Shown: positions 9,746 to 34,873 of the stretch, in pieces
Layout of the letters: every line of letters begins with the position of its first letter
Numbering within the stretch: position 1 is the first letter of the stretch
Origin: Planctomyces sp.
GTDB lineage: Bacteria > Planctomycetota > Planctomycetia > Planctomycetales > Planctomycetaceae
DNA length: 34,873 bases
Assembly (NCBI GenBank): GCA_027483405.1
Contig: JAIXUU010000379.1
Location: 1 to 34,873, forward strand
Direction: 5' to 3'
Made by a program: the position numbers and the translations under genes
Notes under the pieces: generated by a model
What the model was told of the DNA's origin: nothing
Databases searched by the model: none
Seen by the model: the letters and a program-made list of their open reading frames with translations, nothing else

Positions 9746-9780
9746 TGTGCCATGCCTGCAGCTCGAAGCAGGCATGTCTT
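9746..9780. repeat. Palindromic dispersed repeat, copy A
   Basis: Perfect 9-bp arms CATGCCTGC (9751-9759) and GCAGGCATG (9768-9776) enclose the 8-nt loop AGCTCGAA; flanks read GTGC before and TCTT after. The same layout recurs at 23887-23924 and, split, at 16433-16453 plus 16761-16782. It lies between convergent genes and may also act as a two-way terminator. Confidence 0.7.
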
Positions 9781-16432: not shown

Positions 16433-16453
16433 GTGCCATGCTTGCGGCTCTGA
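16433..16453. repeat. Left half of a split palindromic repeat (copy C)
   Basis: GTGCCATGCTTGC followed by GGCTCTGA matches the left arm and loop of copies A and B. The right arm is missing here and is found at 16771-16779. The last ten bases (GCGGCTCTGA, 16444-16453) recur exactly at 16761-16770. Confidence 0.6.
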
Positions 16454-16760
16454 ACTGTCTATTGCAAATAACTTTGCCGAAGGTTTATTTGACGCGTGGC
16501 TGGGGTCAAACGTCCTCGTTTGCCCCCAGTTCGTTGGACTCTGATCGTTATTGACGAACGGAGGCAAAAGTCGTGAATGTATGTGTTGGACGCATTTGCG
16601 CTTTAGAACTTGATTGACCAAGGGGCGGATGAAGACATCCGATCCCTGCGACCCGACAGTATGAAAACATTAAGTAGAAAAGTGTAAAGACCACGCCCTT
16701 CCGCAAAGCCTCCAGGGTCGTGCCACCCATGGGTCAGTGAAAAGATATGTGTAATAGACA
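16454..16760. mobile_element. Candidate non-autonomous insertion (MITE-like), 307 bp
   Basis: The segment is flanked by a 10-bp direct repeat GCGGCTCTGA (16444-16453 and 16761-16770). Just inside are inverted ends: TGTCTATTGCA (16456-16466) on the left and TGTAATAGACA (16750-16760) on the right, complementary at 10 of 11 positions. Removing the segment and one copy of the direct repeat restores a perfect palindrome (arms CATGCTTGC and GCAAGCATG, loop GGCTCTGA) with exactly the 9-8-9 layout of copy A at 9751-9776. The interior has no supported gene but several hairpins: 16500-16529, CGGATG/CATCCG at 16626-16641, and ACCCATGGGT at 16725-16734. No transposase is present. Two alternative explanations remain: a composite of unrelated repeats, or a recombined repeat pair. 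Confidence 0.55.
16500..16529. repeat. Hairpin core also found near 34093-34126
   Basis: CTGGGG (16500-16505) pairs with CCCCAG (16524-16529) and CAAACG (16507-16512) with CGTTTG (16517-16522), leaving one mismatch and loop TCCT. The surrounding text, GTGGCTGGGGTCAAA and CCCCCAGTTCGT, closely matches GTGGTTGGGGCCAAA and CCCCCAGTTCGT at 34093-34132, so this is a dispersed repeat. Confidence 0.6.
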
Positions 16761-16782
16761 GCGGCTCTGAGCAAGCATGCCC
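16761..16782. repeat. Right half of the split palindromic repeat (copy C)
   Basis: GCGGCTCTGA followed by GCAAGCATG (16771-16779) gives the loop and right arm missing from 16433-16453. Together with the left half it forms the complete palindrome. Confidence 0.6.
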
Positions 16783-34021: not shown

Positions 34022-34053
34022 CGGACGAGGTCCAAACACGTCGATCAAATCTC

Positions 34054-34202
34054 ATACGGATTCCAGTATTCGACTGCGCTCCTTGGTATGGTGTGGTTGG
34101 GGCCAAAAGCCTTCGCGAACCCCCAGTTCGTGCGGAAAAACGCTGGGGGTTCGAAGACTCAACCCCAGCCACCCGCCCGCAGCTGTCTATTGGAATCCGT
34201 AT
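34054..34202. mobile_element. 149-bp palindromic element with 12-bp terminal inverted repeats
   Basis: Ends ATACGGATTCCA (34054-34065) and TGGAATCCGTAT (34191-34202) are perfectly complementary. Inside, GTGGTTGGGG (34093-34102) pairs with CCCCAGCCAC (34163-34172), and CTTCG..AACCCCCAG (34111-34126) with CTGGGGGTTCGAAG (34143-34156), so the centre can fold as one long hairpin. If the end is taken as TACGGATTCCA, the flanks show TCA on both sides (34052-34054 and 34202-34204), a possible 3-bp target duplication. It contains no gene. Its core resembles the repeat at 16492-16529. A MITE is the preferred reading; a large terminator serving both convergent genes is the alternative. Confidence 0.5.
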
Positions 34203-34873
34203 CAGATATCGGCCGTTGATTTCTCTGTTTCCCCGGCAACGGGTGCCAACACGGGGAACAAGCGGCTCACTAAGCCGGGCTTCACCACCTGCCTCTTGAA
34301 CAACACCAGGCTGCGCCCCTGCAATGGATACAACTGCCCGGGCCACACCTTTTTGGGAAGGATCTGGTCGTCGAAAGTCGTATCGACCAGAGGCTTCCAG
34401 AACATTCGTCGGGTAGGGGGCGTCACCTGAATTTCAGCAGACTCGCTCTCCTCTTTGGTTGCGACTGGTGTCGCATCCCGCTCACTCGCAACCTCGACCT
34501 GATTCTCAACGACCGGCATCGATGGTTCAGGGGCGGGAACCTTGTTGACCATCGCGGTTGGTCTTGTGATCTGTTCGGCAGCGATCAGTCGAGACTCGGT
34601 CTTGACGATCCCACTGCCGGCAGGCATCGAAACATCCGTCGCTGGAGTCTCCTCATCAATTACGACTGACGAATTCACTGCTGCAGGTTTCTTGTCTGGT
34701 GCAGATTTCCGTTGCTCAGACGAGATTTCACTCAGGTCGCCGAATCCATACTCAGGCAAGCGAAAGGAAATCTCTTCGTGGTGGGCATTGATCAGTAAGA
34801 ACAGCGTGTCACCTTCAATCCGCTCGCCCCGTTCGTTCATTTCGGTAATCTGACTGCCATCGAGAATCACTCC
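34202..34873 (-). CDS. glgX: GlgX-type glycogen debranching enzyme, C-terminal fragment
   Basis: The frame is open to the window edge (ahead of Met the codons read Gly-Val-Ile-Leu-Asp), so only the last 223 residues are visible; the GTG at 34870 is not a real start. The segment GDTLFLLINAHHEEISFRLP matches the C-terminal beta-domain of glycogen debranching enzymes (isoamylase-type, GH13), which cut alpha-1,6 branches; FWKPLVDTTFDDQ and YPLQGRSLVLFKRQ continue it. Between FRLPEYG and FWKPLVD lies a Ser/Ala/Pro/Glu/Val-rich segment of about 110 residues not expected in that domain. The catalytic domain is outside the window. The TGA stop (34202-34204) coincides with the edge of the palindromic element. 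Confidence 0.75.
   Translation of the reverse strand, partial: GVILDGSQITEMNERGERIEGDTLFLLINAHHEEISFRLPEYGFGDLSEISSEQRKSAPDKKPAAVNSSVVIDEETPATDVSMPAGSGIVKTESRLIAAEQITRPTAMVNKVPAPEPSMPVVENQVEVASERDATPVATKEESESAEIQVTPPTRRMFWKPLVDTTFDDQILPKKVWPGQLYPLQGRSLVLFKRQVVKPGLVSRLFPVLAPVAGETEKSTADI

Follow-up and report, generated by a model that had tools for sequence, protein, structure and literature searches.

A putative Tn5/IS50-type MITE family in the dyad of a REP-like palindrome of a planctomycete genus

Introduction

MITEs are common. Insertion into REP palindromes has been described for members of the IS3, IS110, IS4, IS256 and IS5 families (Tobes and Pareja, PMC1525189). One of these, the IS4-family element ISRm22 of Sinorhizobium meliloti, has all of its copies in REP palindromes, inserted at the palindrome axis (PMC1525189). 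Tn5, likewise, tends to insert into palindromic targets whose duplicated stretch is bounded by G:C pairs (Tobes and Pareja, PMC1525189). As for the palindromes themselves, a GTAG or CGTC tag defines two described REP superfamilies (PMC3733652).

Here, we describe a 307-bp insert that splits a REP-like palindrome, together with the family to which it belongs. The genome that carries it and the congeners with which we compared it belong to a genus that we take to be Planctopirus. Like ISRm22, the element lies at the axis of a palindrome, here a REP-like one; unlike ISRm22, which is autonomous and has 6-bp repeats, it is a MITE without a transposase, has a 10-bp duplication and was found only in Planctopirus. 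The insertion of ISs into REPs, including that of an IS4-family member at the axis, is thus already known, and what sets this element apart is that it lacks a transposase, targets the dyad exactly and has a REPIN-like core.

Results

The window, by which we mean the whole stretch of DNA analysed (34,873 nt), is contig C450 of the carrier genome (G000; 5.36 Mb, a draft in 487 contigs). The insert is intergenic, with a carbonic anhydrase gene (PF00484, 15454-16389) on one side and an enolase-superfamily gene (PF13378, from 16875) on the other. The parts of the split palindrome and of the insert are as follows, with the strand where one was assigned.

16437-16444: left arm of the split palindrome, CATGCTTG, preceded by GTGC; the same arm is present in 102 intact copies and at the orthologous empty site of G002
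16445-16454: target duplication, left 10-bp copy, CGGCTCTGAA; last base unlike the right copy
16455-16761: MITE, 307 bp, without a transposase gene; missing at the orthologous place in G001 and G002
16455-16475, plus strand: left terminal inverted repeat, CTGTCTATTGCAAATAACTTT; 21 nt, 86% complementary to the right end
16741-16761, minus strand: right terminal inverted repeat, CTGTCTATTACACATATCTTT (read on the minus strand)
16762-16771: target duplication, right 10-bp copy, CGGCTCTGAG
16772-16779: right arm of the split palindrome, CAAGCATG

A sequence-only reading of this DNA had proposed a 307-bp insertion with a 10-bp target duplication, and both lengths were borne out. The 10-mer on which it was based, GCGGCTCTGA, is indeed present at 16444-16453 and 16761-16770, TGTCTATTGCA does start at 16456 and TGTAATAGACA does end at 16760. 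Comparison with other copies, however, sets the limits of the element at C16455 and G16761, one base further right than proposed, and the inverted ends are longer (21 nt) than had been noted. The two copies of the duplication differ at a single position: the left copy ends in an A that is shared neither by the right copy nor by the G002 empty site, and that most other copies lack as well; most simply, this A is a later change. The element contains no ORF of 80 aa or more and has no coding capacity. Rejoining the flanks gives CATGCTTGC-GGCTCTGA-GCAAGCATG, as that reading held, so that the restored window site is CATGCTTGCGGCTCTGAGCAAGCATG.

The duplicated 10 bp are the exact central 10 bp of the palindrome, which at the window site reads CATGCTTG, CGGCTCTGAG, CAAGCATG and in general form GTGC-CATGCTTG-CRGCTCNGRG-CAAGCATG, with CRGCTCNGRG as the duplicated part. 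This implies a staggered cut symmetrical about the dyad. An intact copy that had already been picked out from the letters was confirmed elsewhere in the window.

9751-9776, plus strand: intact palindrome of the same family, CATGCCTGCAGCTCGAAGCAGGCATG

We counted 102 occurrences of the pattern CATGCYTGCNNCTCNGNGCARGCATG in the carrier genome against 0 for the reversed control; with its GTGC tag, the palindrome has 143 copies in the complete congener G001 (a 5,423,075-bp chromosome), 152 in G002, 33 in G003 and 24 in G005. The controls for these counts were 0 in the carrier genome, G001 and G002, and the tagged palindrome was found in none of the remaining genomes (40 searched), the carrier genome apart. 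GTGC stands directly upstream in 20 of 20 aligned intact copies, and many copies are embedded in an imperfect inverted repeat about 100 bp long. With 26 bp and 102 to 152 copies in three genomes, the palindrome has the length (20 to 40 bp) and the high copy number of a REP, and its tag is GTGC rather than GTAG or CGTC. Given this copy number, the constant tag and the frequent setting in a ca. 100-bp inverted repeat, the palindrome is REP-like and lies outside the GTAG and CGTC superfamilies. Both G003 and G005, the latter from another genus of the family, carry the palindrome and have no MITE end within 1 mismatch; on the sequences compared, the palindrome would be older or more widespread than the MITE. 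Near the end of the window (34049-34207), two 30-nt inverted arms (80% complementary) are separated by 99 nt, and one of them contains CTGTCTATTGGA and GGAATCCGTAT, like the outer arms of the ca. 100-bp palindrome-bearing unit.

A BLAST search with the element returned 54 stretches in the carrier genome and 43 in G001. From 43 ends we derived the family consensus CTGTCTATTACACACAACTTT, which can also be written CTGTCT(A)TTACACACA(A/T)CTTT. Scanning for this end pattern yielded 30 ends in G001, 6 in G002 and 7 in the carrier genome, with 0 in G003 and 0 in the other 146 genomes of a 150-genome family sample (within 1 mismatch). Outside the genus, the pattern was found neither in the 150 family genomes nor in named genome and viral contigs, a collection that may lack near relatives. 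Both ends are present in about a dozen copies, at a spacing of 190 to 414 bp, and dozens of related elements lie at the palindrome dyad in both orientations. The halves of broken palindromes flank the copies at a constant position: an arm is found at one fixed offset before 25 of the 31 ends that match the consensus at 17 or more of 19 positions, versus 0.5% of random positions. A few elements, L078 for example, lie outside palindromes.

Sequences of orthologous sites, together with BLAST coordinates, allowed the window site to be compared with its congeners. In G002, the orthologous place reads CGTGCCATGCTTGCGGCTCTGAGCAAGCATGCCCGCTG, without the element, and its intact palindrome is CATGCTTGCGGCTCTGAGCAAGCATG. 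The orthologous place in G001 (L119, around 1440; window 16444) also lacks the element and has a surplus CGG in the palindrome, CATGCTTGCGGCGGCTCTGAGCAAGCATG, which reflects either triplet slippage or an excision footprint. Extending the comparison to 17 loci across three genomes (G000, G001 and G002), we found an intact palindrome in at least one relative at 11 of them (the window site, L043, L083, L095, L053, L012, L048, L079, L071, L065 and L031), and palindrome coordinates that adjoin the orthologous flank in G002 indicate that L037 is a twelfth. These flanks differ by about 4 to 6% between the carrier genome and G001, and either genome has insertions that are missing from the other, which places transposition on that time scale. 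The checks that the sequence-only reading had proposed, namely second copies of the segment, empty sites in relatives and orthologous loci, thus came out in favour of insertion, and its picture of an element that lacks a transposase, is bounded by terminal inverted repeats and has duplicated its target within a REP-like palindrome is supported.

Could the family have spread instead by homologous recombination or gene conversion between palindrome units, the half palindromes being carried along, with no transposition at each site? The ca. 100-bp repeat in which the palindrome often sits would supply homology for recombination, and some copies are suggestive in this respect: L048, L079, L081 and L065 have an extra palindrome unit beside a truncated element, and at L093 the right half is inverted. 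Against this, the left and right 10-mers at a given site resemble each other. Target-duplication mismatches number 0 to 4 at nine other sites with direct copies and 9 at L093; summed within sites, there are 15 mismatches versus 24.9 expected when right copies are reshuffled (10 sites, L093 left out; permutation p 0.005), or 24 versus 34.0 with L093 included (p 0.008). The site-specific variants also agree with the empty sites (CGGCTCGGAG at L043 and CAGCTCTGGG at L083). Because the 10-mers match both each other and the empty-site variant, these comparisons favour independent transposition events over spread by gene conversion. Moreover, the elements are found in both orientations, and the unique sequence flanking the empty sites shows no other change. 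We therefore consider recombination an improbable source of the family as a whole.

Several copies are aberrant. In G001, L048, L079, L081 and L065 have no right end; they stop at or after the REPIN-like unit described below, and beyond them lies another, complete palindrome unit similar to the left flank. At L006 1388-1851 in the carrier genome, the left end is truncated or missing and there is a 26-bp flank repeat; in its orthologs L213 and L175, the palindrome is interrupted by about 18 bp beginning CTGTCTT, perhaps a remnant of the element. L093 443-703 (G001) and L007 (carrier genome) represent an insertion common to two species, and at L093 the right half palindrome has an inverted loop, so that the two flanks are repeated in inverted and not in direct orientation. 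Recombination between palindrome units, one-ended aberrant transposition or faulty repair could each account for such copies.

Even less plausible is the converse arrangement, in which the element moves together with the palindrome halves and leaves intact palindromes behind as excision scars. A palindrome arm does precede almost all good ends, and the extra CGG at the G001 site is possibly a footprint. However, palindromes far outnumber complete elements, and the 33 palindromes of G003 and 24 of G005, where no ends were found within 1 mismatch, suggest lineages that never carried the element. The more distant G002, furthermore, has a clean palindrome where only one of the sister genomes is occupied, and elements such as L078 lie outside palindromes altogether.

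The interior of the element is itself composed of repeats.

about 16494-16654: internal REPIN-like unit of two inverted hairpins with (G)GGTGGC heads; solo copies occur in many other places without element ends
16500-16529: hairpin 1, CTGGGGTCAAACGTCCTCGTTTGCCCCCAG
16620-16649: hairpin 2, AAGGGGCGGATGAAGACATCCGATCCCTGC
16688-16729, minus strand: repeat block beginning GGGTGGCACGACCC; also dispersed alone, and in other genera (G003, G004, G019 and G027)

The core thus consists of two REP hairpins in inverted arrangement that are dispersed as a unit, as in a REPIN, and no RAYT gene was found beside the element's internal REP. Folded as a single strand, the whole element is far more stable than its shuffles (z -5.25), as expected of DNA built of inverted repeats, and no RNA family in Rfam matches it. 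The one RAYT locus with flanking REPs, L159 (G002:C1:4336991-4340323), has a RAYT-type (Y1_Tnp) gene with pairs of GGGTGGCCCG repeats on both sides; it is likely a REP/RAYT unit of the genus, and its GGGTGGC-headed REP differs from that of the element. That a RAYT or IS200-type tyrosine transposase mobilises the element through its internal hairpins, the inverted ends being incidental, is highly implausible: the REPIN-like double hairpin of the interior does spread by itself and RAYT genes are present in all four genomes (one of them the gene flanked by GGGTGGCCCG), but in the empty-site comparisons the insert is limited by the CTGTCT ends with a 10-bp duplication and not by the REPIN ends, which contradicts the case for the whole element, and these ends match those of Tn5-type ISs. 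For the REPIN alone, mobilisation by a RAYT may apply.

As to what moved the element, its end consensus matches the artificial Tn5 mosaic end, CTGTCTCTTATACACATCT (sequence from PMC4248319), at 16 of 19 positions. Of 99 relatives, 23 have the Tn5-type DNA-binding domain PF14706, and we scanned the MITE end across the DNA around twelve genes with this domain. At several loci, the best matches formed an inverted pair about 1.5 kb apart that bracketed the transposase. Four ISs of related genera, each with both ends identified beside a PF14706 transposase, have ends that agree with the MITE consensus at 15 to 17 of 21 positions (CTTTCAATTACCCACAAvTT in L234, L239 and L243; CTCACCATTACCCACAAGTTG in L235). 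The proteins of L234 and L243 match IS4/Tn5-family models, and that of L243 matches the solved Tn5 transposase (E 1.7e-29). L239 and L243 are flanked by clean 9-bp duplications; L235 (1435-2881) is flanked by a 14-bp direct repeat rather than a 9-bp one. The interior of the element has no similarity to these Tn5-type ISs of related genera. Since the relatives' ISs have a terminal C, the element is taken to start at C16455, which gives a duplication of 10 bp; this is the length by the most natural boundaries, and 8 or 9 bp might also fit, with the palindrome supplying the edge C and G.

The sequence-only reading could not assign the element. By the similarity of its ends to Tn5-type ISs of related genera and to the mosaic end, it can now be classed as a Tn5/IS50-type (IS4-family) element, and, as it encodes no DDE transposase, as a MITE rather than an IS. 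The same reading's suggestion that a relative elsewhere in the genome moves the element found no support: a search for PF14706 gave no match in the four congeneric genomes (the 487-contig draft included), none of the PF01609 loci of these genomes has MITE-type ends, and neither the draft carrier genome nor three congeners yielded a longer element with these ends. A MITE usually, though not by strict definition, has an autonomous IS with matching ends in its genome, and the carrier assembly is a draft. With no such partner found in the genus, the mover may be lost, unassembled or elsewhere.

Discussion

In the current study, we compared a split palindrome with its counterparts in related genomes, and these comparisons establish the ends of the insert, its duplication, its family, its palindrome target, the empty sites of relatives and its likeness to Tn5-type IS ends. 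Taken as a whole, it is very probable that the element is a Tn5/IS50-type (IS4-family) MITE which was transposed in trans into a REP-like palindrome, with duplication of 10 bp centred on the dyad. On this account, a Tn5-like DDE transposase, supplied in trans, would bind the 21-bp CTGTCTNTTACACACANCTTT ends, excise the 307-bp element and insert it into a REP-like palindrome; a staggered cut spanning 10 bp centred on the dyad would then lead to duplication of these 10 bp, leaving one arm on each side. We infer that a Tn5-type transposase not only moved the element but also chose the palindrome, and that this mover has since been lost or lies outside the genomes examined. Two findings speak against the Tn5-type assignment, namely the 10-bp duplication (versus 9 bp in Tn5 and two planctomycete relatives) and the lack of a transposase with these ends in the four congeneric genomes. 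The aberrant copies (L048, L079, L081, L065, L093 and L006) likewise count against the simplest form of the model.

The MITE shares with Tn5/IS50 and its planctomycete relatives (L234, L239, L243 and L235) the terminal sequence (15 to 17 of 21 positions), the terminal C and the G:C edges of the duplication; it differs from them in its missing transposase, its 10-bp rather than 9-bp duplication, its tight palindrome target and its REPIN-like core. With other bacterial MITEs, such as MITEAba12 (PMC6382973), it has in common a short length without a transposase, inverted ends, a target duplication and many copies, whereas it is distinguished by a target of one palindrome at one position, by the lack of any partner IS found in the genome and by an inner repeat family. 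As in REP and REPIN systems (PMC3733652, PMC3116915), a conserved unpaired 5′ tag accompanies the short, repeated palindrome of the target, and the core is an inverted pair of hairpins; however, the tag is GTGC rather than GTAG or CGTC, and no RAYT was linked to the target.

One speculative scenario, which we consider rather unlikely in its entirety, is that a Tn5-type transposase, normally loosely selective, became specialised to cut symmetrically at the dyad of one repeated palindrome, recognising its shape (perhaps that of an extruded cruciform). What we now see would then be an orphan MITE whose safe-site strategy has let it outlast its transposase, and which would still be mobilisable by laboratory Tn5 transposase, given ends almost identical to the mosaic end.

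Planctopirus limnophila is a model planctomycete, and the element accounts for a prominent class of intergenic repeats in Planctopirus. Three repeat families are nested here, the MITE having gone into the palindrome and the REPIN-like unit lying inside the MITE. For a Tn5-type element whose target is unusually narrow, the occupied and empty sites provide natural before-and-after pairs. Finally, the MITE ends are close to the Tn5 mosaic end, such that laboratory Tn5 transposase might bind or mobilise native copies.
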